Below are positions 34,381 through 57,842 of a stretch of DNA of 64,000 nt, one piece after another. The stretch lies in NCBI RefSeq assembly GCF_000969415.1, contig NZ_JZEX01000179.1, positions 1-64,000 on the forward strand, in the 5' to 3' direction. Below the pieces are notes generated by a model. That model had not been told where the DNA came from, made no database searches, and worked only from the letters and a program-made list of their open reading frames with translations. The position numbers were made by a program, and so were the translations under genes. Origin of the DNA: Devosia geojensis (GTDB lineage Bacteria; Pseudomonadota; Alphaproteobacteria; Rhizobiales; Devosiaceae). Position 1 is the first letter of the stretch, and the number at the start of each line of letters is the position of its first letter.

Positions 34381-34400
34381 GCCCGCTCAGTCGAGCGGGC
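34381..34400. terminator. Hairpin between convergent operons
   Basis: GCCCGCTC and GAGCGGGC make a perfect eight-base stem with an AGTC loop. It overlaps the stop codon of the reverse gene (34387-34389) and lies 15 bases after the stop of the forward reductase gene, so it can act on transcripts from both sides. Confidence 0.5.
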
Positions 34401-35901
34401 GTACGCGGATGGCGAGGTAGGGCTTGCCGGGCAGCTCGACGGCGAAGGCGGCGTCGGGCCTTCTCGGCCGGACGATCGCGCCGTGGCGGGTGGGATGGTT
34501 TTCCGGGGCGGGGACGATCTTTGCCGGCGTCACCGTCATGTTCCAGGTGTCGATGAGATCGACCGCATAGCGCCGGTCGTCCTGGGGCAGGCCCGCCGCC
34601 CAGATGACCGGCTGGTGCTCGCCGAAATAGATGTAGGTGACGTCGCCGTCGCGGGCGCCGGAGATGCGGTTCCAGGGGAAGCCCGTCGCACGTTCGATGG
34701 GCTCCAGGCCGTGGGTGACGTCCTCTTCGAGAAGGTCACGCAGGAACCCGATCCGCTTCCAGGCCTCGCCGTGCAGCTCGCCGCCCTTGGCCCACCAGAT
34801 GAGGTCCTGCGGGTGGCTGTAGGTCTCGCCATGCCCGGCATAGCCGCCGCGCATCAGCGTCGTCCAGAAGCGGTGCGTCAGCTCGCCGGCAGAGATGTTG
34901 CCCCAGCACTGGATGATATTACCCTCATATTCCGGCTCGTCGTTGACGACGGGCTTGCCGTAGTCGGCGCGCCATTCGGGAGTGCGCTTGACGTCCCAGT
35001 TCTGGATGCAGACATGGGTGACCCAGGGCTTCCTGTGATCGTAGTTGGCGGCAGGATCGCCGTTGTGGATGGAGCGCAGGTGGCCGTAAGGGTCGTTCTC
35101 CTCGATGATATGGAAATAGCGCTCCCACTGGTGGAGCGGCTTGGTATCGAGGAGGAAGTCGTACTCGTTGGCGAGCGCCCACCAGACATTGCGGTAGGCG
35201 GCGAGGCGTGCGGTGAGGTAAGCGACGTAGCGGTAGTCCTGCTCTTCGCTCATGTCGCAATAGCCCCAGCGGTCGTAGGGATGGAAGATGATGATGTCGG
35301 CCTCGATGCCGAGCTCGCCCAGCGCCTTCACCTGGTTCTCGAAGTGGCGGAAGCTTTCCGGATTCGGCCGGTCGAAATCGAGCTTGCCGTCGGCGCCGGG
35401 CTGGTAGACGTCGTGCAGCGGCTCGTTGACGTTGTAGGGGTAGTCCTTGGGAAAGACGCCCATGCGGATCTTGTTGAAGCGCGTCTTCTTCAGCGTCGCG
35501 AGCGTCTTTTGCTGCTCGGCGAGCGGCTGATGGGTCCAGGCATAGCAGGTGGTGCCGAAGGAGAGGTACGGCGTGCCATCGGCATAGGCGAAGTGGAACT
35601 TGTTGGCGACCCGCACGGGTCCATGGACCTCCGGCCGGGCGGGCGTGACGGTAAAGGCGCCGGACTTACCGTCTAGTTCTGCCACGTTGGAGCGGGTCGA
35701 AAAGCTCCACTCGCCTTCGTTGTCGGGCATGAAGCGCAGCTTGTAGACGCCACCGCCATCGTAGAACCCGGGCACCCGCACGACCCGGCCGTGCTGGCGG
35801 AAGAACCCATCGAGGGTGACGTCGAGAAAGGGATTGCCGCCGGCCGGACCGGCAAGGCTCGCCTCGTACACATCCCATTTGGCGACGCTGGTGTTCGTCA
35901 T
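34387..35901 (-). CDS. Apiosidase-like glycoside hydrolase A (DUF5060/DUF4038 type)
   Basis: The 504-residue protein has an N-terminal beta-sandwich (about 1-95, DUF5060-like, GFYDGGGVYKLRFMP) and a TIM barrel of the apiosidase-like/DUF4038 group, related to GH140. Active-site candidates are E246 (WWALANEYDF) as acid/base and E322/E324 (VVNDEPEYEG) as nucleophile, with HPYDRWG at 207-213. No signal peptide is visible, so it should act in the cytoplasm on imported oligosaccharides. It follows a paralogue by 14 bases at the end of an oligopeptide-type importer operon. GH140 enzymes release apiose-containing units; the exact linkage cut here is inference. Confidence 0.72.
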   Translation of the reverse strand: MTNTSVAKWDVYEASLAGPAGGNPFLDVTLDGFFRQHGRVVRVPGFYDGGGVYKLRFMPDNEGEWSFSTRSNVAELDGKSGAFTVTPARPEVHGPVRVANKFHFAYADGTPYLSFGTTCYAWTHQPLAEQQKTLATLKKTRFNKIRMGVFPKDYPYNVNEPLHDVYQPGADGKLDFDRPNPESFRHFENQVKALGELGIEADIIIFHPYDRWGYCDMSEEQDYRYVAYLTARLAAYRNVWWALANEYDFLLDTKPLHQWERYFHIIEENDPYGHLRSIHNGDPAANYDHRKPWVTHVCIQNWDVKRTPEWRADYGKPVVNDEPEYEGNIIQCWGNISAGELTHRFWTTLMRGGYAGHGETYSHPQDLIWWAKGGELHGEAWKRIGFLRDLLEEDVTHGLEPIERATGFPWNRISGARDGDVTYIYFGEHQPVIWAAGLPQDDRRYAVDLIDTWNMTVTPAKIVPAPENHPTRHGAIVRPRRPDAAFAVELPGKPYLAIRVRPLD

Positions 35902-35915: not shown

Positions 35916-37508
35916 TCAGTTGTCGACGCGCGTCAGCAGCAGCGCCTGGTAGGGCTTTGGCGCGAAATGCAGCAGCTGGCCGCGCTCGACGTTGTCGGCG
36001 AGCGGGGTCTGCGTCATCTCCCAGGTATCGATGAGCGTGGCCGCATAGCGCTCGCCGGGCGGTACGGCTGCAGCCACCTCGCCCGGCTGGTTCTGGCCGA
36101 AGTAGGTGAGGTAATAGCGGTGGGGCTGACCGGCGGTGGCGAAATGGGCGGGAACGCGGGACCAGTCCTCCTCTCCCGGCACGGGGGTGAAGAGACGGTT
36201 CATCAGCACCTTGTCCAGTCCGCCGGCCATCATGACTTTGTAGGACCCGGTGTGCGGCATCGGGTCGAGCCCTTCGTCCGGCCCCTCCTCCAACAGACGC
36301 TTGAGGAACGCAATGCGCGCGATGCTCTCGCCGCGCAGAGAACCGCCCTTGGCCCACCAGATGACGTCGCCGGGGTTGCGGAAGGTCTCGCCGTGGGTGA
36401 CGTAGCCGCCATTGACCGTGCCCTCCCAGAAGCGGTGCACCAGCTCGCGGCCGGAGATGTTGCCCCAGGCTTCGGCGATGTCGCCCTCGTAGCAGACCTC
36501 GTCCATGGAAACGGGCTTGCCGTATTGCTCGCGCCAGAGCGCCGAGCGCGCGGGATCGGGCCGCTGGATGCTGGCGTGGGTCACCTTGGGGTGGTTGTGA
36601 TCATAGAAGGCGAAGCAGTTGTGGACGCCGAGCAGGTGCCCATAGGGGTCGTTGTCGGCCACCACATGGATGAGCCGATCCCAATCGGCCGGCGACTTGG
36701 CGGCCATGAGATCATATTCGTTGGCCATCGACCACCAGACGTTGGGAAAGGCCGAAAGGCGCGCGACGAGGTATTTGAGATAGCGGTCGTCCTCGTCGGC
36801 GCTCATGCGCGCGAAGCCCCAGCGGTCATAGGGGTGGAGCACGATGAGGTCGGCCTCGACGCCGATCTGCGCCAACTGGGCGATGCGCTTTTCGAGGTGG
36901 CGGAAATAGCCGGGCTCGAAGCGCTCGAAATCGAACTCCCAGCCGCTGCCGGAGAACCCGCCGACCCACTTGCTCTCGCCCTTCTTCAGCAAGGGGAAAG
37001 GATACCGCTCGGGCTCGTTCTCGTTGTAGCGGTAGTGCTTGGGAAAGACACACATGCGAATCTTGGTGAAGGGCGCCTCGGCAAGGGTTGCCAGCGTCTC
37101 CTCCTCCAGCGCGTCGCCCTGCAGGTTCCACACATAGGCGGTGGTGCCGATGTTGATGTAGCGGGTGCCGTCGGCATAGCGGAAATGATGGCGGTTGGAG
37201 ACGCGCACGGGACCGTGGTGGCCGGGCCTGGCGGGCGCCACGTCGACGGTTCCCGTCGCACCGTCTAGCGCCGGGCTGTTGCTCCTCGTCTCGTAGGTCC
37301 ATTGGCCGATGGCGTCGGGCAGGAAGCGGATCCTGTAGATGCCGTCGCCGTCATAGAAGCCTGTCACCCGCACCCGCCGATCGCCCCGGCGGAAGACGGC
37401 GCCGAGCTCGACGTCGCGGAACGGATTGCCCTGCGAAGGGCCGGAAAGCGTGAGCTCGAACGTCGCCCACAGCGACGCGGCGCCGTTGGCGGTGGCGGTA
37501 TCGGTCAT
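35916..37508 (-). CDS. Apiosidase-like glycoside hydrolase B (paralogue of A)
   Basis: The 530-residue protein has the same two-domain layout as its neighbour: beta-sandwich (about 10-95), then a barrel with HPYDRWG (225-231), E264 (WWSMANEYDL) and E337 (VSMDEVCYEG). Between about 155 and 200 there is an extra stretch (NENEPERYPFPLLKKGESKW) not found in A, which may alter the substrate groove. The start is the ATG at 37508; a longer frame upstream lacks a better site. No signal peptide is visible. It is 53 bases after the last importer ATPase and 14 bases before A, so all are probably one operon. Confidence 0.72.
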   Translation of the reverse strand: MTDTATANGAASLWATFELTLSGPSQGNPFRDVELGAVFRRGDRRVRVTGFYDGDGIYRIRFLPDAIGQWTYETRSNSPALDGATGTVDVAPARPGHHGPVRVSNRHHFRYADGTRYINIGTTAYVWNLQGDALEEETLATLAEAPFTKIRMCVFPKHYRYNENEPERYPFPLLKKGESKWVGGFSGSGWEFDFERFEPGYFRHLEKRIAQLAQIGVEADLIVLHPYDRWGFARMSADEDDRYLKYLVARLSAFPNVWWSMANEYDLMAAKSPADWDRLIHVVADNDPYGHLLGVHNCFAFYDHNHPKVTHASIQRPDPARSALWREQYGKPVSMDEVCYEGDIAEAWGNISGRELVHRFWEGTVNGGYVTHGETFRNPGDVIWWAKGGSLRGESIARIAFLKRLLEEGPDEGLDPMPHTGSYKVMMAGGLDKVLMNRLFTPVPGEEDWSRVPAHFATAGQPHRYYLTYFGQNQPGEVAAAVPPGERYAATLIDTWEMTQTPLADNVERGQLLHFAPKPYQALLLTRVDN

Positions 37509-37561
37509 TTCTTTTATCCCGTAGCTAGTGGCGGGCAGGACCCGCCGGCAACAAACGACTT

Positions 37562-38392
37562 TCAATGAGGCGCCGCGGCCGCCTTGCGCGGCCGCCAGCG
37601 GGAGCGGGTGGTGGGAATGGATCCGAGCAGCAGGCGCGTATAGGCGTGCTGAGGGTTGGACATCACGTCGCGGGCGGCACCGAACTCGACGACCTGCCCC
37701 TTGTTCATCACCGCCACGAAGTCGGAGATGTAGTAGGCGGTGGCCAGATCATGGGTGATGTAGAGGAAGCTGCGGCCGGCCTCGTCGCGCAGACGCTTGA
37801 AGAGGTTGATGATGATCATGCGGCGCGACGCGTCGATCATGCTCACCGGCTCGTCGGCGACGATGAGGCTGGGCTGCGGGATCAGCGCGCGGGCAATGGA
37901 GACGCGCTGCAGCTCGCCGCCGGAGAACTGATTGGTGTATTTGCCCACGACATCGGCGAATTCCAACCCGACCGAGGCCAGCGCCTGTTCGACCGCCGCT
38001 TCAGCGGCCTGGCCGCGAAGGCCAGCCACCCGGTCGGCGGTCTCGAAAAGGTAGGCATCGACCGTGCGGTAGCGGCTGAAGGCCTCGAACGGGTTCTGGA
38101 AGATCGGCTGGATGGAAGAGAGGAACTCGCGCTTGCCGGGCTGCGCTCCGCGCCCCGCGACCACCTTGTCGTAGACGATGGCGCGCCCGGACGTCGGCTC
38201 GACGAGGCGCAGCAGCGTCTTGGCGAGCGTCGTCTTGCCGCTGCCGGATTCGCCGACCACGGCGATGATGACCGGATTGTCGCTCTCGACGCTGATGTCG
38301 ACATCGTTCAAGGCCTGGATGGTCCTGGCGCGCCCGAAGCTGCCGAGGCGGTAGACCTTGTTGAGGCCCTCGGTCCTGAGGATCACTGCCAT
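37562..38392 (-). CDS. Oligopeptide/oligosaccharide ABC importer ATPase (DppF/OppF type)
   Basis: The 276-residue protein has Walker A VVGESGSGKTTLAK (about 45-58), signature FSGGELQRVSIARAL and Walker B LIVADEPVSMIDASRR, the usual OppF-like variant in which VSMID replaces TSALD. It couples ATP hydrolysis to import together with the DppD-type protein encoded just upstream, whose gene it overlaps by ten bases. It belongs to the same operon as the two apiosidase-like enzymes, which suggests that the importer carries an oligosaccharide instead of a peptide. Confidence 0.9.
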   Translation of the reverse strand: MAVILRTEGLNKVYRLGSFGRARTIQALNDVDISVESDNPVIIAVVGESGSGKTTLAKTLLRLVEPTSGRAIVYDKVVAGRGAQPGKREFLSSIQPIFQNPFEAFSRYRTVDAYLFETADRVAGLRGQAAEAAVEQALASVGLEFADVVGKYTNQFSGGELQRVSIARALIPQPSLIVADEPVSMIDASRRMIIINLFKRLRDEAGRSFLYITHDLATAYYISDFVAVMNKGQVVEFGAARDVMSNPQHAYTRLLLGSIPTTRSRWRPRKAAAAPH

Positions 38393-39360
38393 TGGACGCC
38401 TCCCGACGGCATCTCGGCGCCGGCATAGTGGCAGGCGGCGAAGTGGCCGGGCCGGTGTTCGACGAGCACCGGCTCCTCGACGCGGCAGCGATCGGTGGCG
38501 AACGGGCAGCGGTCGGCGAAGCGGCAGCCGCGCAGCTCCCCCCAAAGGCTCGGCGGGCGGCCCGGAATCCCGTCCCGCGCGCGATCGTCGCCGATGGTCG
38601 GCAGCGAGCTGATCAGCATGCGCGTATAGGGGTGGAGCGGCGCCTCGAAGACGCTGTCGCTGTCGCCATATTCCACGGCCTTGGCCGCGTACATGATGAG
38701 CATGCGATGGGTGACCTGGTAGTGGACGCCCATGTCATGGGAGACGAGGACGATGGTGTTGCCCATCTCCTCCTGCAGCTCCATGAGGAGCATGAGGATC
38801 TCCTTTTGCACCACCACGTCGAGGGCGGTGGTCGGCTCGTCGGCGAGGATCAGCTCAGGCTGGAAGAAGGTCGCCATGGCGATCATCATGCGCTGGCGCA
38901 TGCCGCCCGAAAGCTGGTGCGGGTAGGCATCGAGCGCCTCGGCGGGAAGGCCGAGCTTGCCGATATAGGCCCGCACCTGCTCGAGCACGCGGCGCTTGTC
39001 CGGATCGTTGCCGGGAAAATCGATGAACTGCTGACTGATGCGGATGACCGGGTTCAGCGAATTCATCGAGCTCTGCGGCACATAGGAGACGCGGCGGAAC
39101 CACTCCTGCTGCACGGTATGGCTGGTGACGGGCGCGCCGCGCCGGTCGACAAAGCCATATTCGATGGAGCCCGACGCGAGGGTCATGGGTGAAAGGATGT
39201 CGCCATAGAGGACCTTCATCAGGGTCGACTTGCCGCAACCGGACTCCCCGGCGACGCCCAGGATGCAGCCATCGGGGATCTCGATGGTGACGCCGTCGAC
39301 GGCGTTGATGGAGCCGCGCCCGGTGCGATAGCTGGCAACGACGTTGTTGAGGCGGATCAT
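38383..39360 (-). CDS. Oligopeptide/oligosaccharide ABC importer ATPase (DppD/OppD type)
   Basis: The 325-residue protein has Walker A GVAGESGCGKSTLMK (about 35-49), signature LSGGMRQRMMIA and Walker B ELILADEPTTALD. The C-terminal extension has the cysteine-rich motif GCRFADRCPFATDRC (about 280-294) that is typical of OppD/DppD and may hold an iron-sulphur cluster. The ATG at 39360 overlaps the stop of the DppC-type permease by four bases, and the 3' end overlaps the DppF-type gene. Confidence 0.92.
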   Translation of the reverse strand: MIRLNNVVASYRTGRGSINAVDGVTIEIPDGCILGVAGESGCGKSTLMKVLYGDILSPMTLASGSIEYGFVDRRGAPVTSHTVQQEWFRRVSYVPQSSMNSLNPVIRISQQFIDFPGNDPDKRRVLEQVRAYIGKLGLPAEALDAYPHQLSGGMRQRMMIAMATFFQPELILADEPTTALDVVVQKEILMLLMELQEEMGNTIVLVSHDMGVHYQVTHRMLIMYAAKAVEYGDSDSVFEAPLHPYTRMLISSLPTIGDDRARDGIPGRPPSLWGELRGCRFADRCPFATDRCRVEEPVLVEHRPGHFAACHYAGAEMPSGGVQWQ

Positions 39361-40265
39361 GAGACACCACGCTTGCTGGCGAAGGCCGCGTTGAAGCCGG
39401 TCGAAGTGAGAAAGAGGCCGAGGAACAGCACCACCGTCGCGACGATCGGCGCGACGATCCAGACGTACTGGCCGGTGAAGAGCGCGTTGTAGTTGAGCGC
39501 CCAGAAGATAATGGAGCCGAGCGTCGGCACCTCGATCTTGGAGAGCCCGATCACCGCCAGCGTCGCCTCGAGGTTGATCGCAAAGAGGATCGTGTTGATG
39601 AAGCCGACGAGGGTATAGGCCATGACGTAAGGGAACACCTCGCGCACGAGGATCTGGATGGTGTTGGCGCCCGAGAACCGCGCCATGTTGATGAACTCGC
39701 GCTCGCGCAGCGACAGGGCCATCGACCGGACCGTGCGCGCGTCCCACGCCCAGCCGAAGATCATGATGATGATGCCGACGGTGAGGAACGAGGTGTTGCC
39801 GCGGATGAGCGCGCCGAGGATGATGAGGATCGGCAGCAGCGGAATGGTGATGAAGGTATCGACGAAGAGCATCACGATCCGCTCGAACCGTCCGCCGATA
39901 TAGCCGGCGCTCAAGCCGACGATCGTGGCGATGACGGTCACGCCGGCCGCCACCAGAACGCCCAGCATCAGCGAGTTGCGCACGGCAAAGACGAGGAACC
40001 AGAAGATGTCCTGCCCGAGGGCATTGGTGCCGAGCCAGTGGACCGGCGACATCGGCAGATTGCGCATATAGGTCGCCTGCACCGACGGGTCCGCCGGCGC
40101 GAACAACGGCAGGACGAAGCTGCCGAGCCCCATGACCACGAGGATGGCCAGCCCGGCGGCAAGGCGCGGGTTGACCAGCCAGAGCCAGCTTGCACGGGCC
40201 TTCGATCTGGCCGGGGCGGACACGAGAACGGCCGGCATGGCGGTGTCTTTGATGTCGATGCTCAT
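39357..40265 (-). CDS. Oligopeptide/oligosaccharide ABC permease (DppC type)
   Basis: The 302-residue protein has six membrane helices and the DppC pattern: a long N-terminal tail, a first helix LAAGLAILVVMGLGSFVLPLF, then HWLGTNALGQDIFWFLVF and REREFINMARFSGANTIQI, which contains the EAA-type loop. It pairs with the DppB-type subunit. The start overlaps the DppB stop, and the stop overlaps the DppD start, as expected for a tight operon. Confidence 0.92.
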   Translation of the reverse strand: MSIDIKDTAMPAVLVSAPARSKARASWLWLVNPRLAAGLAILVVMGLGSFVLPLFAPADPSVQATYMRNLPMSPVHWLGTNALGQDIFWFLVFAVRNSLMLGVLVAAGVTVIATIVGLSAGYIGGRFERIVMLFVDTFITIPLLPILIILGALIRGNTSFLTVGIIIMIFGWAWDARTVRSMALSLREREFINMARFSGANTIQILVREVFPYVMAYTLVGFINTILFAINLEATLAVIGLSKIEVPTLGSIIFWALNYNALFTGQYVWIVAPIVATVVLFLGLFLTSTGFNAAFASKRGVS

Positions 40266-41263
40266 CTGTGCCGGATCCGCGGGTCGAGAAGGGGATAGAT
40301 GAGGTCGATCACGAGGCCGGCGGTGGCGACGGCGATGATCGACAAGGTGATGGCGCCATAGAGCACGTTGTAATCGCCGCCGGTGGCGGCCGTGCGCATG
40401 ACGAGGCCGATGCCGGGATAAGAGAAGATCATTTCGGTCAAGAGCGCGCCGTTGAACACCATGCCGAGCGAAAGGGCGAGCGCGGTGACCTGCGGCAGGA
40501 GCGCGTTGCGGAAGACATAGCGGGTCATCCGCATCCAGTTGGAGGCGCCCTTCAGGCGCGCATAGGTGACGTAGGGCTCCTCGGTCGTCGCGACCGCCAG
40601 CGCCTTCATCGACAGGATGTTCCAGCCGAACCCGGCAAGGACCAGCGTGATGCCCGGCAGAAGCGAGTTGTAGATGATCATCCCGAACTTTTCTGGCGTC
40701 ATCTGGCCGACGGGGAACGTCGCCGAGAGCGGGAAGATCGGGAAGACATAAGCGAGCAGCAACAGCACCGTGACCGCGAGGATGTAATAGGGGATGGGGT
40801 AGAGCAGGATGCCGACGAACTCGAGGACGGAGGCGGCCTTCTTCCTGTGGAAGTAACCGGCGACGAGCCCGACCATGTTGCCCATGACCCAGGCGATGAA
40901 CGTCGACATCAGCAGCAGCCCCAGCGTCCAGGGCAGCGCGTTGAGGATCATCGCCGAGACGGGCTGCGGGTAATAGGTGAAGGACGGGCCGAAATCGAAG
41001 TTGAGGACCACGCGCTTGAGGTAGGCCAGGTACTGGGTGAAGAGATCACCTTCCAGGCCGTAGAGCTGCTCGAGATTGACGCGCAGCTCCGCGATCGCCT
41101 CGGCCGAGATCGAGCCGTTGGCCCGGCTCTGGATCTGGCCGATATAACCGTCGACAGGATTGATCGGCATCAGCCGGGGCAGGAGGAAGGTGATCGTCAG
41201 TCCGATGAAAAGGACCGCCAGATAAAGCCCCAGCCGCTTGGCCACGTAGCGCATGACACCCAT
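40262..41263 (-). CDS. Oligopeptide/oligosaccharide ABC permease (DppB type)
   Basis: The 333-residue protein has six membrane helices, starts with VAKRLGLYLAVLFIGLTITF and LLPRLMPINPV, and has the loop EEPYVTYARLKGASNWMRM (about 230-248) that contacts the ATPases. It ends DLIYPLLDPRIRHR, the standard DppB tail. It follows the binding-protein gene after a 72-base gap that contains a strong hairpin. Together with the DppC-type subunit it makes the channel. Confidence 0.92.
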   Translation of the reverse strand: MGVMRYVAKRLGLYLAVLFIGLTITFLLPRLMPINPVDGYIGQIQSRANGSISAEAIAELRVNLEQLYGLEGDLFTQYLAYLKRVVLNFDFGPSFTYYPQPVSAMILNALPWTLGLLLMSTFIAWVMGNMVGLVAGYFHRKKAASVLEFVGILLYPIPYYILAVTVLLLLAYVFPIFPLSATFPVGQMTPEKFGMIIYNSLLPGITLVLAGFGWNILSMKALAVATTEEPYVTYARLKGASNWMRMTRYVFRNALLPQVTALALSLGMVFNGALLTEMIFSYPGIGLVMRTAATGGDYNVLYGAITLSIIAVATAGLVIDLIYPLLDPRIRHR

Positions 41264-41335: not shown

Positions 41336-43243
41336 CTATTGCTGGCCGGTCGGCTCGATCCGGACGACCGTCTGCTTGAACGAGCTCCACCAGGTGTAGG
41401 GGGTGGCGTAGAAGTTGTCCTGCTTGGGGAAGTTCGTCCAATAGGTGCTGTTGGTCGGGATGGTGGTGGGGATGTTCATCAGATTGATCATCTGCATGTC
41501 TTCCACCAGGTAGCGGGCGATCTGCCGGCCGTTCTCGATGAACTCGGGCGCGTTCGTCTCGAGGCTGGCGCTCTCGGCCACGAGATCGAAGATCCGCTCG
41601 TCGGTGATGCGCATGTAGTTGCCCGAAAGCTGGTCGGTTGAATCGGCCGGCTGCACGTTGTTGGGGGTGAACTGGCGCCAGGAATTCTGCCAGTTCGAGT
41701 TGTAGGTGCACGAGTTCGACCAGTTGAGCTGCAGCTCGTTGCGCGAGTTGGTGTTCTGGACGGTGGTGAATTCGCCATTGTCCACCTGGCGGGCGCTGAC
41801 GTTGAACCCGGCCTGCCGCCAGCTGTCGGCGATGGAAAAGCCTATGCGCTGCATCACCTTGTTCCAGTCGCCGGGGATGACGAGCTCGAAGGTCCAGGGC
41901 GAGCCGTCCGGCAGGGCGAAGTAGCCGTCCGCCCCTTTGACCATGCCGACCGACTCGAGGAGGCTGGCGGCCTGCTCGGGATCGTGCTTCCACCAGCCCA
42001 TGCCGAAGCCGTCGCGGATGGCATCGCCTGAGGGCAGCTGCGAGGCATCGACGCCCTGGGCGGCCAGGGTCTCGGCGAGCTCGGCCCCGAAGTTCGGGTT
42101 GAAGGGTTTGTAACCGTCGGCGAGGGTCAGCTCCTCGAGGAACGAACGCAGCTCATCATAGTAGAGCGGCCCGGTGATGGGCGTATCGGCGAGCGGCAGG
42201 GCGCCGGCCTTGAACTGCCCGCTCATGGCGCTGATGCCGACCTGCTGTAGGTTGACCGTCAGCGCCAGGGCCCAGCGCACCTCCGGCATGTCGAACGGCG
42301 CCTTCTGGCCGTTGATGTAGATGCCGTAGGAGCAGGCATCGTTCATGTCGTGGTAGGGGAAGGTCGGCGAGAAGGTCTCGATATTGGGATTGCGCGCCTT
42401 GGCGGCATCGATGCTGTCCGGGCTCATGAAGGTGTCGACGTCGTACTGGTTCTGTACGAACGCCAGCGCGCGCGTCTCCTCGGTGCCGAAGTCCTTGTAG
42501 AGGATGTATCTGGGCTTGGGTTCGCCGAGATTGCCCCAGCCGGAGCGCTCCCAGTCCTCGCGCAGCTCCCAGAGCTGCCAGAAGCCGTTGGGGTCGAACT
42601 CGCGGATCTTGTAAGGCCCGAGCGTTACCGCCGGCGCGTTCTGGAAGGTGACGACCTCGTCGCCCAGCGGCTCGAAGATATGCTTGGGCACGATGTTGAA
42701 CTGGGAGCCCCAGGTATAGACGCCCAGGACCGTGGTGAAATCGTAAGCCGGGCGGACCGTCTCGATCTCGAAGGTATAGTCGTCGACCTTATTCCAGCTC
42801 TTGACGTAGTTGGTGACGGTCGCAACGTTTGTCAGCTGCTCGCGGTATTTGAACGCGGTCTCGAGGGTGTAGATCACGTCGTCGGCGGTGAACTCGACGC
42901 CGTCGCTCCAGTAGACGCCCTCGCGCAGCTTGACGCGGAATTGGGTGCGCTCATCGTTGAGGACTTCCGGGAAGCCATCGGCGAGCTCGGGATAGGATTC
43001 GCCGGTGGCGGTGTCCATCTCCCAGAGGAAGCTCCAGCCGAGCTCGCGGAAGCCGCGCCAGATGGCGTAGGAATTGAGCGGGTTCTGTGCCGAAGGGTTG
43101 GCGGAACGCCCGTCGAACGCCTGGACGATCAAAGTCTCGCTGCGGGGCGTGCCGACGTCGGTCATCGCCCCCTGCGCAAAGCCGGTAGTGGTCATCAGGG
43201 CACCCAGGACGGGCGCCAGCAGGTATCGGCCGAGCCGTGCCAT
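41336..43243 (-). CDS. Family-5 solute-binding protein (DppA/OppA type)
   Basis: The 635-residue protein has a signal peptide (about 1-24, ending in TGFAQG) and the family-5 binding-protein fold: ERTQFRVKLREGVYWSDGVEFTADDVIY (about 95-125) is a hallmark. This family binds peptides but also oligosaccharides; the longer length compared with DppA (about 535) and the hydrolase genes in the same operon favour an oligosaccharide. AAGGAGG precedes the ATG at 43243. It is the first gene of a seven-gene operon: binding protein, DppB, DppC, DppD, DppF, hydrolase B, hydrolase A. Confidence 0.9.
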   Translation of the reverse strand: MARLGRYLLAPVLGALMTTTGFAQGAMTDVGTPRSETLIVQAFDGRSANPSAQNPLNSYAIWRGFRELGWSFLWEMDTATGESYPELADGFPEVLNDERTQFRVKLREGVYWSDGVEFTADDVIYTLETAFKYREQLTNVATVTNYVKSWNKVDDYTFEIETVRPAYDFTTVLGVYTWGSQFNIVPKHIFEPLGDEVVTFQNAPAVTLGPYKIREFDPNGFWQLWELREDWERSGWGNLGEPKPRYILYKDFGTEETRALAFVQNQYDVDTFMSPDSIDAAKARNPNIETFSPTFPYHDMNDACSYGIYINGQKAPFDMPEVRWALALTVNLQQVGISAMSGQFKAGALPLADTPITGPLYYDELRSFLEELTLADGYKPFNPNFGAELAETLAAQGVDASQLPSGDAIRDGFGMGWWKHDPEQAASLLESVGMVKGADGYFALPDGSPWTFELVIPGDWNKVMQRIGFSIADSWRQAGFNVSARQVDNGEFTTVQNTNSRNELQLNWSNSCTYNSNWQNSWRQFTPNNVQPADSTDQLSGNYMRITDERIFDLVAESASLETNAPEFIENGRQIARYLVEDMQMINLMNIPTTIPTNSTYWTNFPKQDNFYATPYTWWSSFKQTVVRIEPTGQQ

Positions 43244-43536: not shown

Positions 43537-44367
43537 TTAGCCGGCGACGATGACCTCGACGCCGCGCCGCTCGAACTCGGCCCGGTCGGCATCGGAAATG
43601 CCGTCGTCGGTGATAAGCGTATGGACGATCTCCACACCGCCGAGGGCCGAGAAGGACACCCGCCCGATCTTGGTGGAATCAGCCAGGAGATAGACGTGCG
43701 AGGCGGCCTTGACCATGGCGCGCTTGACATAGATGTCGCCGATGGCCGGATAGGTGAGCCCCGCCTCGAACGAGACGCCGGCGGTCGCCAGGAACAGTTT
43801 CTCGGCATAGATGCCGACGAAGAAATCGGCGGACTTCTCCCCGCTCAGCGACAAGGTCGGCGCCTTGAATTGACCGGCGGGCATGTGCACCGTATTGGTG
43901 GGCATGGCCCCCAGGATCAGGGCGATGTTGAGCGCGTTGGTGATGATGTTGAGGTCGTGCCGGGCCTTGAGATTCTCGGCAAACTGGGTGGCGGTGGTGC
44001 CGGAATCGATGATGATCGTTTCGTGATCGCCGACGAGCGCGGCGGCGGCCTCGCCGATCTTGCGCTTCTTGTCCATGTTCTGCACGTGCTGCAGCGTCAT
44101 GGACTGCACCTGCTGCGGCACGGACTTGAGGTAGGCCCCGCCGTGCTCGCGCGTGATGTAGCCATCGGCATCGAGGCGCTCGAGATCCTGGCGGATCGTC
44201 GCTTCCGAGACGGCAAAGGCGGCCGAAAGGTCACGCACGCGCGCGCTCCCCTCCTCCTGCAGCCACTCGAGGATCTTCATGCGCCGCGGTTCGGCAAGAA
44301 GCTGCTGCCGGCCGCCGTCGGCGGCGATCCGCTCGCGCACGGCTCTGGACATCCTGGGTTTCTGCAT
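43537..44367 (-). CDS. DeoR-family transcriptional regulator
   Basis: The 276-residue protein has an N-terminal DeoR-type helix-turn-helix (RRMKILEWLQEEGSARVRDL then AFAVSEATIRQDLERLDADG, about 28-70) and a sugar-phosphate-isomerase-like sensor domain with IIDSGTTATQFAENL and YAEKLFLATAGVSFEAGLT. Such proteins usually repress sugar operons until a phosphorylated intermediate binds. GGGGGAGC lies just before the ATG at 44367; upstream codons lack a site. It lies between two putative target operons, the oligosaccharide importer (reverse) and the transketolase operon (forward), and shared motifs occur in front of both. Confidence 0.9.
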   Translation of the reverse strand: MQKPRMSRAVRERIAADGGRQQLLAEPRRMKILEWLQEEGSARVRDLSAAFAVSEATIRQDLERLDADGYITREHGGAYLKSVPQQVQSMTLQHVQNMDKKRKIGEAAAALVGDHETIIIDSGTTATQFAENLKARHDLNIITNALNIALILGAMPTNTVHMPAGQFKAPTLSLSGEKSADFFVGIYAEKLFLATAGVSFEAGLTYPAIGDIYVKRAMVKAASHVYLLADSTKIGRVSFSALGGVEIVHTLITDDGISDADRAEFERRGVEVIVAG

Positions 44368-44504: not shown

Positions 44505-44522
44505 CGCAAGAAAACCGCATAA
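44505..44522 (+). promoter_or_regulatory. DeoR operator candidate, copy 1
   Basis: CGCAAGAAAACCGCATAA is repeated 40 bases downstream as CGAAAGAAAAACGCATTA, with three differences in 18 bases. The spacing is close to four helical turns, so both copies lie on one DNA face, as is common for a multimeric repressor. Confidence 0.5.
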
Positions 44523-44544
44523 ATCGAAATTTTTCCGTATTGCG

Positions 44545-44562: not shown

Positions 44563-44735
44563 TAGCTTCTCGGCAAACGAGACGGCACGGGCATTCCGAC
44601 GTCGTGCGCGAGGAGAACAGCTTTCCGCGAGGGCACCGCCGCCATGGCGGCCTGGTGCCGCCGGCGAGCCAGCCGATCCCGGCACGCGTATGACGAAGCG
44701 AAGTCGGAGCCCTGCGATTGCCCCGGGAGGCCAGA

Positions 44736-45584
44736 TTGTCATCGTCCGCACCGGCCCATCACATGCAGACCAACGACCTCGTCTCGGCCATCCGCGCCAA
44801 GGCGCTATGGATACGCCGGCGCAGCTTCCAGATGGTCTATGAGGCCCAACAAGGTCATCCGGGAGGCGACTTCAGCGCCGCCGATATCCTGGCAACGCTC
44901 TATTTCGGCGTGCTGAGATTCGATCCCACCCGACCAAACGACCCGGCGCGCGACCGGTTCGTCATGAGCAAGGGGCACTGCACCGGCGCGTTCTATTCGG
45001 TGCTGGCGGCGGCGGGATACTTTCCGGAAGCGGAACTTTCGACCTACATGCTGCCGCTGTCACGGCTCAACGGCCACCCCAACCGCAACTACTTGCCCGG
45101 CGTCGAGACCAATACCGGGCCGCTCGGCCACGGCCTGCCGGTCGCCACCGGCATCGCCATCGCCGGCCAGATCGACGGAGCCGACTTCCGCACGTTCGTT
45201 CTGACCGGAGACGGCGAGTTGCAGGAGGGCAGCAACTGGGAGGCGGCCCTGACCGCCGCGCACCGCAAGCTCGAGAACCTCACCCTGATCATCGATCGCA
45301 ACCGCCTGCAGCAGGGCGCGCGCACCGAGGAAACCGCCTCGCTCGACCCGCTGGACGACAAATGGCGGGCATTCGGCTGGCACGTGGAGATCGTCGACGG
45401 GCACGATCACGCCCGGCTGCTCGACATCCTGTCGGTCAGCCCCAAAGGGCGGGGCAAGCCGCTCTGCGTCATCGCCAATACGTTCAAGGGCAAGGGGGTG
45501 AGCTTCATGCACGACAATGTCGCCTGGCATCACGGCGTGCCCAACAAGGAACAGTACGAACAAGCCATGGCAGAACTGGTCTGA
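44736..45584 (+). CDS. Transketolase N-terminal subunit (candidate apulose-4-phosphate transketolase)
   Basis: The 282-residue protein is the ThDP-binding half of a split transketolase: AQQGHPGGDFSAADIL, then LGHGLPVATGIAIAGQ and the ThDP motif starting GDGELQEGSNWEAAL and ending IIDRN. In the apiose pathway, a two-subunit transketolase converts D-apulose 4-phosphate and glyceraldehyde 3-phosphate to xylulose 5-phosphate and DHAP. The downstream kinase and isomerase genes make this the best reading here; a general or xylulose-specific role is the alternative. I chose the TTG at 44736 because GGGAGG lies five bases upstream; the ATG at 44763 has no such site. Confidence 0.82.
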   Translation: MSSSAPAHHMQTNDLVSAIRAKALWIRRRSFQMVYEAQQGHPGGDFSAADILATLYFGVLRFDPTRPNDPARDRFVMSKGHCTGAFYSVLAAAGYFPEAELSTYMLPLSRLNGHPNRNYLPGVETNTGPLGHGLPVATGIAIAGQIDGADFRTFVLTGDGELQEGSNWEAALTAAHRKLENLTLIIDRNRLQQGARTEETASLDPLDDKWRAFGWHVEIVDGHDHARLLDILSVSPKGRGKPLCVIANTFKGKGVSFMHDNVAWHHGVPNKEQYEQAMAELV

Positions 45585-46543
45585 TGAGCGCAGCAGTCCC
45601 GACACCCAGCGGTTATTTCGACTGCCGCGACAGCTTTGCCAACGTCATCGAGACGCTCGCCGAGGCCGACCCGCGCATCGTGACCGTCGTCAGCGACAGC
45701 GTCGGCTCGTCCAAGCTCACGGGATTTCGCAAGAAGTTCCCCGAGCGCATGGTCAACGTCGGCATCGCCGAGCAGGTGCTGGTGGCGGTCGGCGCGGGGC
45801 TCGCCAATGGCGGCAAAGTGCCGTTCGTTTCGGCGGCGTCGTGCTTTCTCACGGGCCGGGCATTGGAGCAGGTGAAGGCGGACGTCGCCTATTCCAACGT
45901 CAACGTCAAGCTCATCGGCCAGTCGAGCGGTGTCGCCTATGGCGAGCTCGGGCCAACGCACCATTCGATCGAGGACATGGCCTGGCTGCGCCCGCTCTCG
46001 AATCTCACCGTCATCGTGCCCTCGGACCCATGGGAGACGGCGGAAGCGGTGCGGTTCGCGGCACGGCACGAAGGCCCGGTGTTCATCCGCGTCAGCCGCA
46101 TGCCCGTGCCGGCGCTCGAGCGCAAGAATCCGGTCTTCACCGTCGGCAAGGCCGAGGTGCTGCGCGAGGGCGGCGACATCGCGATCATCGCCAACGGTGT
46201 GATGGTGCACCGGGCGCTCGCCGCGGCGGCGGCATTGGCCGGCGAAGGCATCGAGGCGCGCGTCGTCAACATGTCGAGCATCAATCCGCTCGACGAGGAG
46301 GCCATTCTGGCAGCAGCCAAAACCGGCGCGGTGGTCACCGCCGAGGAGCACTCGGTGCGCGGCGGGCTCGGCGGCGCGGTCGCCGAGGTGCTGGCGACGC
46401 ACCGGCCGGTGCCGATGAGCATCCTCGGCTTCCCGGGCTTCGTGCCGACGGGTTCGGCCGAATGGCTGCTCGAGCATTTCGGTTTGACGCCTGCTGGCAT
46501 CGCCGAGGCGGCGCGCAGGACGCTGGCGCGCAAGGCCCAATAG
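45584..46543 (+). CDS. Transketolase C-terminal subunit
   Basis: The 319-residue protein carries the pyrimidine-binding and C-terminal domains: MVNVGIAEQVLVAVGAGLAN holds the catalytic Glu, YGELGPTHHSIEDMAWLR lies in the substrate loop, and EEHSVRGGLGGAVAEVL in the last domain. The ATG shares one base with the previous stop (TGATG), so the two subunits are made together. The complex should use ThDP and Mg in the cytosol. The next gene starts directly after its stop. Confidence 0.88.
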   Translation: MSAAVPTPSGYFDCRDSFANVIETLAEADPRIVTVVSDSVGSSKLTGFRKKFPERMVNVGIAEQVLVAVGAGLANGGKVPFVSAASCFLTGRALEQVKADVAYSNVNVKLIGQSSGVAYGELGPTHHSIEDMAWLRPLSNLTVIVPSDPWETAEAVRFAARHEGPVFIRVSRMPVPALERKNPVFTVGKAEVLREGGDIAIIANGVMVHRALAAAAALAGEGIEARVVNMSSINPLDEEAILAAAKTGAVVTAEEHSVRGGLGGAVAEVLATHRPVPMSILGFPGFVPTGSAEWLLEHFGLTPAGIAEAARRTLARKAQ

Positions 46544-48010
46544 ATGACCGCGCCGCTCGTTCTCGCCATCGACCAGGGCACGACCAACACCAAAGCGCTG
46601 CTGGTTTCGCCCGACGGGCGGATCGTCGCGCAGGCAAGCGTGCCCAACGCGGTCGACTATCCCCGTCCCGGCTGGGCGGAGCAATCGGGCGAGAAACTCT
46701 GGCAGGGCGTGCGCGCAGCGATCGAGGCGGCGGTCGGCCGGGCCGGCGGCGCGGAGGAGATCGTTGCCCTTGCCATCTCCAACCAGCGCGAATCCGTGCT
46801 GGTCTGGGATGCGGCAACGGGCGAGCCGATCGGCCCCTGCATCATCTGGCAATGCCGGCGCACGGCAGAGGTGTGCGCGCAGCTGCAGGCGGCCGGCCAT
46901 GCCGACCTGATCGCGGTGCGCACGGGCCTCGGGCTCGATCCGCTTTTTCCCGCTGCCAAGATCGCCTGGCTGATCGATGCCGTGCCCGGCGCGCGGCAGC
47001 GGGCCGAGCGCGGGGAGCTGCGCGCCGGCACGGTCGACACCTGGCTCCTCTGGAAACTAACGGACGGCGCGCTGCACGCCACCGACCACTCCAACGCCTC
47101 GCGCACCCAGCTTTTCGACATCGGGCGCCTCGCCTGGGACGCGGAGCTCGCCGAACTCTTCCGCGTGCCGATGCCGCTGCTGGCACAGGTGCATCCCTCC
47201 AATACCCGGTTCGGCAAGGTCGCAGCCGGCACGACTGCCCTGCCGGCGGGCATACCCATCCACGCCATGATCGGCGACTCGCATGCCGCACTCTACGGCC
47301 ATGGCGTACGCTCGCCGGGCACCGTCAAGGCGACCTACGGCACCGGCACCTCGCTGATGACGCTGACGCCGGGCAAGGTGCGCTCGCGCCACGGGCTTTC
47401 GGCGACCATCGCCTGGAGCACGCCGGCGGGTGCCGTGCATGCGCTCGAAGGCAACATATCGGTCTCGGGCCAGGCAGCGCAGTTCATGGCCGAACTTCTC
47501 GGCCTTACCGATGCGAATGCGGTCGCAACGCTTGCCCAGACGGCCATCGACACGCAGGGCGTCACCTTCGTTCCTGCCCTTGTCGGGCTCGGCGCGCCGC
47601 ATTGGCGCAGCGACGCGCGCGGCACCATCACAGGCATGTCGCTGACGACAAAGCCCGCCCACTTCGCCCGCGCCGCGCTCGAGGCCATCGCCTTCCAGGT
47701 CGCGGACGTGTTTACGGCGATGGAAAAGGACCTCGGTGCCGAGCTCGCCGGGCTTTCGGCCGACGGCGGCGCCTCGCAGAACGCCATGCTGATGCAGTTC
47801 CAGGCCGATCTTCTCGATCGGCCCGTCACGGCAAGCGCGGCGCCCGAGGTCAGCGCGCTGGGCGCCGCTGCCCTTGCCTTCGACGGGCTCGGCATCGCGA
47901 CACAGTTTTCCGACGGCGGCACCCGCTTCTCGCCGGCGATCGATCCGGCGGCGCGCGCCGCACATCTCGAGCGCTGGCAGGCCGCCGTCCGGCAGACCTT
48001 GACGACATAA
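46544..48010 (+). CDS. FGGY-family sugar kinase (candidate D-apulose kinase)
   Basis: The 488-residue protein is a two-domain FGGY kinase: AIDQGTTNTKALLVSPDGRI (about 9-28) is the phosphate loop, GPCIIWQCRRT a substrate-side segment, and GDSHAALYGHG includes the catalytic Asp that corresponds to GDQQAAL of glycerol kinase. YGTGTSLM and ADGGASQNAMLMQFQADLL complete the ATP side. It resembles glycerol and xylulose kinases, but the neighbours (split transketolase, sugar isomerase) favour a ketopentose-like substrate such as D-apulose. It starts immediately after the transketolase stop. Confidence 0.85.
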   Translation: MTAPLVLAIDQGTTNTKALLVSPDGRIVAQASVPNAVDYPRPGWAEQSGEKLWQGVRAAIEAAVGRAGGAEEIVALAISNQRESVLVWDAATGEPIGPCIIWQCRRTAEVCAQLQAAGHADLIAVRTGLGLDPLFPAAKIAWLIDAVPGARQRAERGELRAGTVDTWLLWKLTDGALHATDHSNASRTQLFDIGRLAWDAELAELFRVPMPLLAQVHPSNTRFGKVAAGTTALPAGIPIHAMIGDSHAALYGHGVRSPGTVKATYGTGTSLMTLTPGKVRSRHGLSATIAWSTPAGAVHALEGNISVSGQAAQFMAELLGLTDANAVATLAQTAIDTQGVTFVPALVGLGAPHWRSDARGTITGMSLTTKPAHFARAALEAIAFQVADVFTAMEKDLGAELAGLSADGGASQNAMLMQFQADLLDRPVTASAAPEVSALGAAALAFDGLGIATQFSDGGTRFSPAIDPAARAAHLERWQAAVRQTLTT

Positions 48011-48037
48011 CGCACAACGCATTTCAGGGAGGAAGCA

Positions 48038-49018
48038 ATGAGCACACAGCGTTTCGGCGCCGGCATCTGGCACTTCGCCACCTATGTCGACCGCTACGCC
48101 ACCGACGGCTACGGAGAGCCGAGGAGCGTCATCGAGGCCATCGATCTCGCGGGCAAGGTTCGCGACCTCTCGGTCGTCGACATCAACTATCCCTTCTTCG
48201 GCGGCGATTTCACCAACGAGGAAATCAAGGCGGCGCTCGATCGCAACAAGCTCGGCGTCATCGGCGTCACACCCGAGATCTATACCCGCGAGTTCCGCAA
48301 GGGCGCCTTCACCAACCCCGATCCCGGCATCCGCCGGCGCGCGCACAAACTCATCAGCGAGGCGTGCGATGTCGTGCGCTTCTTCAAAGCCGACTACGTC
48401 AAGCTCTGGCCCGGCCAGGACGGCTGGGACTACCCCTTCCAGGTCGACCACGGCGCGCTCTGGAAGCATTCGCTCGACGGCGTCGGGCAGCTTGCGAGCG
48501 AAAACCCGGACTTGAAGTTCGTCATCGAATACAAGCCGCGTGAGCCGCGCGTGCACATGAGCTTCGATTCGCTTTCGAGGACGCTCCTCGGCATCGAGAA
48601 GATCGGCCTGCCCAATGTCGGCATCCTCTTGGACTTCGGCCATGCGCTCTTCGGCGGGGAATCGGCGGCCGATTCGGCCCAGATGGCCATCGACTACGGC
48701 CGGCTCTTCGGCATGGACGTCAACGACAACTTCCGTTCCTGGGACGACGATCTTGTCGCCGGCAGCCTCCATCCCATCGAGCTCTTCGAATTCTTCTATG
48801 TATTGAGGAAGAACAAGTGGGCGGGCGTCTGGCAGCTCGACCAGTTCCCGTTCCGCGAGGACAGCGTCGAGACCGCCAACCACGCCATCGACTTCCTCAA
48901 GGCCGCCGCGCGCGGGCTCGACGCCCTCGACATCGACGCCTTGAAGGAAGCCCAGGCGCGCCACGACGCCATCGGTGCGTTGAAGATCGCCCAGAAGGCG
49001 CTGTTCGGCGCGTTCTGA
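48038..49018 (+). CDS. TIM-barrel sugar isomerase (candidate D-apiose isomerase)
   Basis: The 326-residue protein is of the xylose-isomerase-like TIM-barrel superfamily, close in style to the Pseudomonas-type L-rhamnose isomerase. Candidate metal ligands are E in [11 protein letters not shown] in [15 protein letters not shown] in [14 protein letters not shown] and D in [10 protein letters not shown], in the correct order for this fold. AGGGAGGAAG precedes the ATG at 48038. It would convert an aldose to the ketose used by the FGGY kinase upstream. With the kinase and transketolase subunits this completes a D-apiose route; the assignment of apiose is inference. Confidence 0.78.
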
Positions 49019-50213: not shown

Positions 50214-51302
50214 CTAGCGGCGCGGAGAGGCGACGGAGCTCCGCTGCACCAGCGCGCATTCCAGCCGGGTCAGGAGCACGGGCGGGGAGTCGATATCCTG
50301 GCCGTTGAGCACCATTTCGGCAGCCCACTGCCCCATCGCCCGATGCGGCAGAACCACCGTCGTCAGTTGCGGGTGCAGGTGGCGGGCGATCTCCTCGTCG
50401 TCGTAGCCCATCACCGACATGTCGCGGGGAATGTCGAGGCCCGCCTCCTTCAGGGCTTCGAAACAGCCGATCGCCATGCGGTCGTTCTGGCAGAAGATGG
50501 CGGTCGGCATGTCCGGCAGCGCCAGAATGCGCCGGGTCGCCTCATAGCCGGCGCTGGCCGACCAGTCGCCCTCGAACACCAGGTCCGGATCGAACGGAAT
50601 GTCGGCGGTGGAAAGCGCGCGCCGATACCCCTTGGGGCGGTCGCCGGCCGCCTCCATCCAGGCCTCGCCGGTGATGGTGGCGATGCGGCGATGGCCTTTG
50701 TCGATGAGGTGCCGGGTGGCGCGCTGTCCGCCGGCGACCTCGCCGGGCACGACGGCCGGGAAATCCGCTTCGGTGCTGTAGCAGTTGATCAGCACGACGG
50801 GTGCATCGAACTCACGCAGCCCCTGGGGTACGATCAACTCACGGGTGAAGATGGTCATCAGGACGAGCGCTTTGACGCGCTGGGCGGCAAAATGGGCGAC
50901 GAGCTGGGCCTCGGCATCGTGGCTGCCATAGGTCTGCGCGACGAGGACGGTGAGGCCCGAGGGGCGCAGGGCCTGGCTCAGGCCCTCGATGGCCTGGACG
51001 GCTTCCGGACTGGTGGAGAGATTGTCGACGATGAACCCGACGAAACCCGCCTCCTGCGGCGGTTTCGGCTCGGCGGGCCGGCGCGGGGAGGTGTAGCCCA
51101 GCCGGCGCGCGACCTCGAGTACCTTCTGGCGCGTCTCCGGTGAAAGGCGGATATCCTCGACATTGTTGAGGACGAACGAGACGGTGGTCTGCGAACAGCC
51201 GGCCTCGCGGGCGATGTCGGTCATGGTGACCCGGCGCGCGGCGCCACCCGCACGCCCCTTGCCGCCCGCACGCTCACCTTTGCCAGACCCGCGGGCCGCC
51301 AT
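50214..51302 (-). CDS. LacI-family transcriptional regulator
   Basis: The 362-residue protein has a basic, glycine-rich N-terminal tail (about 1-24), then VTMTDIAREAGCSQTTVSFVL, a LacI-type helix-turn-helix, and a sensor domain (VGFIVDNLSTSPEAVQAIEG, IFCQNDRMAIGCFEAL, MSVMGYDDE). The tail is longer than usual; a start at V25 is less likely because the ATG at 51302 is the only ATG in place. It follows the DUF4965-type hydrolase by 60 bases on the same strand and is probably the last gene of the arabinoside operon that begins at 59123. Confidence 0.88.
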   Translation of the reverse strand: MAARGSGKGERAGGKGRAGGAARRVTMTDIAREAGCSQTTVSFVLNNVEDIRLSPETRQKVLEVARRLGYTSPRRPAEPKPPQEAGFVGFIVDNLSTSPEAVQAIEGLSQALRPSGLTVLVAQTYGSHDAEAQLVAHFAAQRVKALVLMTIFTRELIVPQGLREFDAPVVLINCYSTEADFPAVVPGEVAGGQRATRHLIDKGHRRIATITGEAWMEAAGDRPKGYRRALSTADIPFDPDLVFEGDWSASAGYEATRRILALPDMPTAIFCQNDRMAIGCFEALKEAGLDIPRDMSVMGYDDEEIARHLHPQLTTVVLPHRAMGQWAAEMVLNGQDIDSPPVLLTRLECALVQRSSVASPRR

Positions 51303-51362
51303 CGTCCGTCCTTGCCAGTTGCGGACGTCCTTTTGCGCTGGACGCCCGCCCGAGGCAAGAGG

Positions 51363-53393: not shown

Positions 53394-53464
53394 TGGAAAG
53401 CTCTGACGTTCGTTGAGGGTGCGCCGGACGTTCGGTCCGGAGCGGCAGAATGGAAAACCCGCGA

Positions 53465-54538
<1,074 letters not shown>

Positions 54539-54559
54539 CTGCGTTCTCCTATCGCGCCT

Positions 54560-56026: not shown

Positions 56027-56045
56027 GAAGAAAAGTCCTTAGTTC

Positions 56046-56873
56046 CTATTTGATGCCCGCGGTCGGGCGCATGCCGTTGACGATCCAGCGCTGTCCGAAA
56101 AGGAACAGGATGATCATCGGCAGAGAGGTGAAGAAGGCAGCGGCGAGGATCACGGTGTAGTTGATGATGGCGGCCGTATCGGCCGAGAGGTAGGAAACCG
56201 CCACCGGCACCGTCATCGAGGCGGGCGAGTTGGTGATGATCAGGGGCCAGAGGAAGTTGTTCCAGCTATAGAGCGCCGAGAGCACGCCGACGGTAATGAT
56301 CGCGGGCGCCGCCAGCGGCACCATGATCAGGCGGAACACCTGGAAATCGGTGGCTCCATCCATGCGCGCCGCCTCCTCCATCTCGCGCGGCAGCTGCTGG
56401 AAGAACTGGCGCAGGATGAAGATGCCGACGACGCGCGGCAGGCCGGGCAGGATCACGGCATAGACGGTGTCGACGAGGCCCCAATTGGCCATGAGGTCGT
56501 AGAGCGAAATGACCTCGAGGATGCCTGGCATCATCATGGTGACGAGCACGAGGAAGAAGACGAAGTCCCGCCCCGGCCAGCGCAGGCGTCCGAACGCATA
56601 AGCCGCCGGGATGTCGAGCAGCAGGATTCCCACCACCTGCGCCACCATGATCACGGCGCTGTTGAGCATGGCCTGGGGGATGCTGACGCCGCGCCCGGCG
56701 TCGGTCAGCACGCGCCAGTAGTTGCTCCAGGTCCAGTTGGAAGGGACGAGCTGATCCTTGAGGATCTCGGACGAGGGCGCGAAGGAAAAGAGGATCAGCG
56801 ACGCCATGGGCAGGATCCACAGCAGCGCCAGCACCAGGAGGATCAGCCAGCGGGGGACGTTGTTCCTGTTCAT
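56046..56873 (-). CDS. CUT1 ABC permease (MalG/UgpE type)
   Basis: The 275-residue protein has six membrane helices and the EAA loop LPREMEEAARMDGATDFQVF (about 160-180). It begins MNRNNVPRWLILLVLALLWI and ends GQRWIVNGMRPTAGIK, the standard MalG-type C-terminus. It follows the MalF-type gene by 11 bases. The frame is open further upstream only as a shadow of that gene. Confidence 0.92.
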   Translation of the reverse strand: MNRNNVPRWLILLVLALLWILPMASLILFSFAPSSEILKDQLVPSNWTWSNYWRVLTDAGRGVSIPQAMLNSAVIMVAQVVGILLLDIPAAYAFGRLRWPGRDFVFFLVLVTMMMPGILEVISLYDLMANWGLVDTVYAVILPGLPRVVGIFILRQFFQQLPREMEEAARMDGATDFQVFRLIMVPLAAPAIITVGVLSALYSWNNFLWPLIITNSPASMTVPVAVSYLSADTAAIINYTVILAAAFFTSLPMIILFLFGQRWIVNGMRPTAGIK

Positions 56874-56884
56874 GGGACCGATCC

Positions 56885-57745: not shown

Positions 57746-57842
57746 GGGCAGGCTCCCGCCGAGGGCGTGCGAAATCGGGGCGAGGTGGTGACGGGTCGTC
57801 CGGAGGCGGGACCGGCACACCAGCCCCGCCCGGAAATCTCTC

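Follow-up and report, generated by a model that had tools for sequence, protein, structure and literature searches.

Which sugar is broken down by the operon at positions 44736-49018 of a Devosia geojensis contig (NZ_JZEX01000179.1), whose first 64,000 nucleotides were analysed here and are hereafter called the window? The initial annotation had proposed D-apiose, a branched plant cell-wall sugar that occurs in rhamnogalacturonan II and in the apiogalacturonan of aquatic plants. The core D-apiose pathway is already known in other bacteria, and we consider it very probable that the window carries a D-apiose (apioside) utilisation operon that works via apulose 4-phosphate, a reading that stands on gene presence and order, protein families, pocket residues and co-conservation, as observed in the window and its relatives.

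The open frames give four tightly packed genes on the plus strand, divergent from a DeoR-family regulator, in the order transketolase N-terminal subunit, transketolase C-terminal subunit, FGGY kinase and TIM-barrel isomerase. The N-terminal, thiamine diphosphate (ThDP)-binding subunit (AptA-like, 44736..45584; PF00456 146.6 bits, cut-off 22) may start at TTG 44736, which is preceded by a ribosome-binding site (GGGAGG at 44725-44730) and agrees with the N-termini of Devosia relatives, or alternatively at ATG 44763. Its gene shares a single base with that of the C-terminal subunit (AptB-like, 45584..46543; PF02779 124 bits, PF02780 112 bits), the one ending and the other starting at 45584. Directly after the second stop, at 46544, begins the kinase (46544..48010; PF00370 212 bits, PF02782 125 bits), apulose-kinase-like and also glycerol-kinase-like, albeit below the GlpK cut-off, and a gap of 27 bases separates it from the isomerase (48038..49018; PF01261 66 bits, cut-off 31), the start of which is again preceded by GGGAGG and which resembles the D-apiose isomerase ApsI. 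With these open frames and with Pfam scores far above the cut-offs, the split transketolase, adjoining kinase and isomerase described initially are confirmed as an operon. The closest named matches were Devosia proteins for the isomerase (91-92% identity) and a protein of D. nitrariae for the kinase (77%).

Among solved structures, the isomerase matched 3ktc best (436 bits), the next match being a xylose isomerase with 68 bits. We take 3ktc to be ApsI of Pectobacterium atrosepticum. In a search in which 11 of 398 genomes of the phylum had any relative at E 1e-40, a protein of genome G222 proved 100% identical to the letters of 3ktc over 319 residues; it is encoded in a cluster of RbsB, DUF2291, RbsA, RbsC, two transketolase subunits, an FGGY kinase, the isomerase itself and a regulator. 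This cluster is related to that of Escherichia coli SE15 (identities of 79%/71% for the transketolase, 70% for the regulator, 45% for the kinase and 45-53% for RbsABC). According to PMC13001218, growth on D-apiose was found for P. carotovorum WPP14, E. fergusonii and three cluster-bearing E. coli strains, SE15 being the sequence query there and not one of the strains grown; the same paper places apsI in the Pectobacterium cluster and describes the Escherichia cluster as lacking it. As the 3ktc protein is present in the G222 cluster and absent from the matching E. coli cluster, it is apsI by position. The window proteins are 61% (isomerase), 49% (kinase) and 51%/42% (transketolase N/C) identical to those of the G222 cluster, and 43% (kinase) and 47%/44% (transketolase N/C) identical to those of SE15. 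In a tree with two other TIM-barrel enzymes, which took in no xylose or rhamnose isomerases, the window isomerase and the 3ktc protein formed one clade (100/100), and 39 residues, including E164, K166, D199, H202, and D268, were invariant in all 22 rows of the alignment. The xylose isomerase (TIGR02631, 67 bits against a cut-off of 447) and rhamnose isomerase (TIGR02635, 59 bits against 531) readings were both rejected.

The gene neighbourhood was surveyed in the best 80 of 413 isomerase relatives. All four genes were present in 62 of these 80 loci, spanning at most 10.1 kb, which excludes a chance grouping; several of the remaining 18 loci are short contigs. Within the genus (49 genomes, the window's own included; isomerase at ≥ 80% and transketolase subunit at ≥ 85% identity), the isomerase was found in 24 genomes, the transketolase subunit in 23 and both in 22, and in 22 of the 24 isomerase-bearing genomes the subunit lies on the same contig, 3.3-3.4 kb from the isomerase. 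One genome (G423) holds a decayed isomerase copy (G423:C5:27054-27791; 52% identical, four in-frame stops) next to two full-length copies on other contigs. More distant isomerase relatives (62-72% identical) occur on Pantoea plasmids and in two other genomes (L084 8980-9972, L085 8980-9972, L105 9775-10737, and L107 9774-10742).

The nearest solved relatives of the kinase are glycerol kinases, and it reaches 508 bits on the GlpK model TIGR01311, below the cut-off of 590, as do the kinases of the two D-apiose clusters (466 and 495 bits); for comparison, the glycerol kinase in the window's own genome reaches 708 bits and that in G222 761 bits. It also falls below the xylulokinase and rhamnulokinase cut-offs. 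At GlpK positions 135, 246, and 270, where Tyr135, Gln246, and Phe270 are presumably the glycerol contacts, the window kinase and both D-apiose-cluster kinases carry Leu, Ser, and Ser, and three glycerol kinases carry Tyr, Gln, and Phe. Of the 59 loci that do not belong to a low-GC (guanine-plus-cytosine) group considered further below, 51 contributed one kinase each to this comparison; Ser246 and Ser270 were present in 51/51 of these kinases and Leu or Met at position 135 in 50/51 (one gap). A glycerol kinase was thus rejected on the sub-threshold score and the replaced contacts, and a xylulokinase on its score below the curated cut-off together with the pocket residues. In the kinase tree, the three glycerol kinases formed a 100/100 clade without the window kinase. 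The three-residue signature could offer a simple means of telling apulose-type kinases from look-alike glycerol kinases. The two-subunit transketolase adjoins kinase and isomerase, as the D-apiose pathway (ApsI-ApsK-AptAB) requires.

The initial annotation had also placed apiosidase-like hydrolases in the neighbouring divergent unit, and two such genes are indeed found on the minus strand (region 34387-37565): hydrolase A (34387..35901; PF13204 68.8 bits, PDB 4n0r 347 bits) and hydrolase B (35916..37508; PF13204 51.8 bits, PDB 4n0r 398 bits), both with approximate starts, both combining DUF5060, PF13204, and DUF5605, and both above the PF13204 gathering cut-off of 26.5. By these Pfam matches they are apiosidase-like, of the DUF5060/DUF5605 type, a designation that stops short of GH140 itself, which we take to be the family behind PF13204. 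The predicted structure of hydrolase A was too poor for use (mean predicted local distance difference test, pLDDT, of 56.5). Two classes of PF13204 proteins were distinguished in the genus, the window type (49-73 bits) and a higher-scoring one (110-123 bits). The window type was found in 23/49 genomes, namely in 22/24 with the isomerase and in 1/25 without it (Fisher p 1.2e-10, a value that is only a guide, as the genomes share ancestry, so that it makes them look more independent than they are, and the line between the classes was drawn after the scores had been seen). The higher-scoring class is not linked to the isomerase (4/24 vs. 3/25), and the pooled classes give 23/24 vs. 3/25. At least one window-type copy lies within 15 kb of the isomerase in 19 of the 24 isomerase-bearing genomes, and in the single isomerase-less genome that has one (G420) hydrolase A adjoins a shortened transketolase gene. 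Among the 80 loci hydrolase A was found in nine, four of which are cut by the locus end.

Upstream of the hydrolases, the minus strand encodes a five-gene Opp-type importer: two ATPases (37562..38392 and 38383..39360; PF00005 and PF08352 in each, starts approximate), two permeases (39357..40265 and 40262..41263, open frames that are 82% and 87% identical to their counterparts in locus L179, the second in the same order there) and a family-5 substrate-binding protein (41336..43243, start approximate; PF00496), the best PDB match of which is 4pfu, named "Mannoside ABC transport system, sugar-binding protein". The DeoR-family protein (43537..44367, minus strand, start approximate; PF00455 and PF08220) is the probable regulator of the operon, and in loci of Devosia and of rhizobia a relative 62-91% identical to it accompanies the isomerase. 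Between regulator and operon, an AT-rich stretch (44515..44543), partly conserved in relatives, may be a DeoR site, the case for it being weak: one 14-mer recurs with at most three mismatches in 21/36 related upstream regions, and three shuffled versions of the query, placed at every second position, reached 11, 9, and 5. Locus L179 (genome G422) keeps the full order of the window, from the hydrolase pair A/B through the five Opp genes and DeoR to the operon. Opp is replaced by RbsABC and DUF2291 in the equivalent locus in G440, which has hydrolase A alone. This exchange suggests that both importers serve a common pathway; over the 80 loci, RbsC at ≥ 50% identity to that of SE15 was found in 33 and OppB at ≥ 60% identity to that of the window in 13. 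The import and hydrolysis side of the window looks like a variant of the known pathway. Two further sugar loci flank these genes, one at 50214-59162 on the minus strand (LacI regulator, GtaA/DUF4964-type protein, parts of an ATP-binding cassette (ABC) transporter, arabinofuranosidase-like enzyme and binding protein) and one at 29048-34366 on the plus strand, ending beside the hydrolases (sugar ABC transporter, dihydrodipicolinate synthase (DHDPS)-family protein and aldo-keto reductase).

Several observations weigh against a D-apiose operon. The initial annotation had recommended comparing all three enzymes with characterised proteins in trees, and this comparison supports the isomerase (with the 3ktc protein at 100/100) and not the kinase or the transketolase, neither of which groups specifically with the D-apiose references. 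In the kinase tree, the window protein is not placed together with those of the D-apiose clusters; a single clade of the 15 non-marine cluster kinases was not rejected (approximately unbiased test, p-AU 0.21), and a grouping of the window kinase and its relatives with glycerol kinases was likewise not rejected (p-AU 0.41). In the transketolase tree, which has long branches as does that of the kinase, the subunits of E. coli and of the 3ktc cluster lie closer to two split transketolases of other contexts than to that of the window, and as the tree does not settle the kinship of the latter, this assignment is supported by context. At least five long-flanked loci (L006, L014, L020, L026, and L067) carry the isomerase without the other genes, and no such kinase or transketolase was found, in the stretch examined, near the isomerase relatives in Pantoea and G377 (62-64% identical) or in G158 (72%). 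The presence of the isomerase is therefore no proof of the pathway by itself. Moreover, the RbsABC and DUF2291 importer, usual though not essential for D-apiose clusters, is not found beside the window operon, the one solved protein clearly related to the hydrolases, 4n0r, is a putative glycoside hydrolase, and in five of the isomerase-bearing genomes (G433, G434, G443, G449, and G453, the last two fragmented) no window-type hydrolase lies within 15 kb on the isomerase contig.

Such observations could suit an operon that degrades another sugar of similar shape (a branched pentose, a tetrulose or a dihydroxyacetone (DHA)-type ketose) by the same isomerase, kinase and split-transketolase chemistry, in that neither the kinase nor the transketolase tree settles the kinship to the D-apiose references and the isomerase family occurs in several gene contexts. 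We nevertheless regard it as improbable, given the Leu/Ser/Ser pocket that the window shares with both D-apiose-cluster kinases, the 61% identity of its isomerase to that of the 3ktc-bearing cluster, the interchange with an E. coli-type importer in the equivalent locus of G440 and the link with apiosidase-like hydrolases. Catabolism of glycerol, xylose or L-rhamnose with an odd transketolase would account for glycerol kinases being the nearest solved relatives of the kinase and for the weak matches of the isomerase to xylose and rhamnose isomerases, yet every score lies below the curated cut-off, the glycerol-contact residues are lost, and the window genome has a separate GlpK (708 bits against 590) and XylB (546 against 380) elsewhere, which makes it very improbable. 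Clear clustering of kinase and isomerase with xylulose, L-rhamnose or erythritol enzymes, named at the outset as grounds for abandoning D-apiose, was checked in part: the kinase remains below the xylulokinase and rhamnulokinase cut-offs and the isomerase below those for xylose and rhamnose isomerase, with the erythritol enzymes outside this comparison. The original assignment to apiose is upheld by the isomerase identity and its clade with the 3ktc protein, the kinase pocket and the co-occurring hydrolases.

With substrates, reactions and regulation read across from the known pathway, a D-apiose operon would work as follows. Apiose-containing oligosaccharides or glycosides would be taken up by the Opp-type importer, and D-apiose would then be released by the two apiosidase-like hydrolases in the cytosol; import before cleavage is likely, since neither hydrolase has an evident signal peptide when judged by eye. 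The isomerase (48038-49018) would convert D-apiose to D-apulose, the kinase (46544-48010) would phosphorylate it to apulose 4-phosphate, and the two-subunit transketolase (44736-46543) would transfer its C1-C2 unit to glyceraldehyde 3-phosphate, giving dihydroxyacetone phosphate (DHAP) and xylulose 5-phosphate. In the absence of inducer, the divergent DeoR protein would repress the locus. The window therefore offers a testable D-apiose locus to which import and release steps are attached, in the form of the Opp importer and the paired hydrolases, and the latter, of DUF5060 type, may represent a second group of apiosidases.

A different solution for the first step may exist in E. coli, where PMC13001218 supposes that two short-chain dehydrogenases/reductases (SDRs) replace the isomerase. 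Clusters of this SDR type without the isomerase, with RbsABC and an E. coli-type regulator, were observed in the window's own genus (L172 3663-13357) and in G043 (L173 2777-12617). The isomerase-less genomes G439, of the same genus, and G043 have transketolase subunits 55-61% and kinases 47-50% identical to those of the window, together with SDRs 62-65% and 54-63% identical to the two of the E. coli cluster. SDR1 was detected at E 1e-70 in three of 81 relatives, i.e. in these two and in G415, which also has the isomerase operon, at a separate place. Close to the isomerase, SDR1 at ≥ 50% identity was present in 10/80 loci, six of them low-GC and four rhizobial. The five long-flanked loci listed above (rhizobial or Agrobacterium) hold isomerase, DeoR and D-apiose-type RbsA and RbsC, with no such transketolase or kinase within 10 kb, and L020 has SDR1 in addition.

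The reach of the gene set into the sea would be the most surprising by-product of the analysis, as judged from sequence comparison. Of the 80 loci, 21 (L040, L055, L060, L062-L066, L068-L070, L072-L076, and L078-L082) come from single-cell or metagenome assemblies of Alphaproteobacteria with a low GC content (0.29-0.35); their isomerases share 79-84% identity with that of the window, and all four genes, including the split transketolase and the GlpK-like kinase, are present in 15 of the 21. We take these genomes to be marine because of their sample names and because AG-916-M14 (L066, genome G527) is named HIMB59-1.A in PMC10734472. Within the family of G527 (marine HIMB59) the isomerase was found in 20/52 genomes, and other low-GC loci belong to a second lineage, about 86% identical in 16S. 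An assignment to core SAR11 was rejected, as SAR11 16S probes had at least five mismatches in the 11 rRNA loci compared (one partial). The kinases of this group count against a simple apulose-kinase reading in their own case: their place in the tree is with the glycerol kinases, although the four scored on the GlpK model reached 461-473 bits, below the cut-off of 590, and in the 16 that were aligned Gln246 and Phe270 are lost throughout, with Tyr or Phe at position 135 in place of Leu or Met. Both SDRs (52-57% identical) accompany the isomerase in four low-GC loci (L040 7371-9927, L076 11000-13548, L080, and L081), and since such clusters hold all three, the SDR pair would have a role besides replacing the isomerase. 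We give even chances to the proposal that the isomerase-centred pathway is not only plant-associated, that streamlined bacteria of the HIMB59 (AEGEAN-169) family and of the second low-GC lineage consume D-apiose, or a branched sugar very similar to it, in seawater, and that the SDR pair has a role of its own there. In three papers on the HIMB59 clade (including PMC10734472), apiose does not appear in the main text; nothing pairing apiose with SAR11 or with Devosia was found in the open-access library searched, where apiose combined with bacterioplankton led to work on RuBisCO-like proteins, among others. The low-GC marine clusters suggest that plankton feeds on a sugar regarded as terrestrial, and they are relevant to the role of the SDR pair in the D-apiose cluster of E. 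coli ST131.

How, then, does the window compare with known systems? A Pectobacterium cluster of D-apiose isomerase, apulose kinase and apulose-4-phosphate transketolase was reportedly described by Carter and colleagues in 2018. With the cluster of G222, which bears the 3ktc protein, the window has the isomerase, FGGY kinase and two-subunit transketolase in common, clustered in both, while it differs by the Opp importer, the DeoR regulator and the two apiosidase-like hydrolases, in place of which G222 has RbsABC with DUF2291 and a regulator from a different family. Compared with the GH140 apiosidases, both window hydrolases exceed the PF13204 gathering score, but they are flanked by DUF5060 and DUF5605, and their only clear solved relative is 4n0r. 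The D-apiose cluster of E. coli ST131/STc14 (PMC13001218; SE15, L083) has the same kinase pocket residues as the window, whereas it encodes two SDRs and no isomerase, and the window genome, which encodes the isomerase, has no relative of SDR1 at E 1e-70. In a plasmid cluster of Rhizobium sp. SL42 (L086), identities to the window reach 87% for the isomerase, 73%/66% for the transketolase, 55% for the kinase and 66% for DeoR, although here the four genes stand beside an RbsABC and DUF2291 importer and follow the order isomerase, transketolase, kinase.

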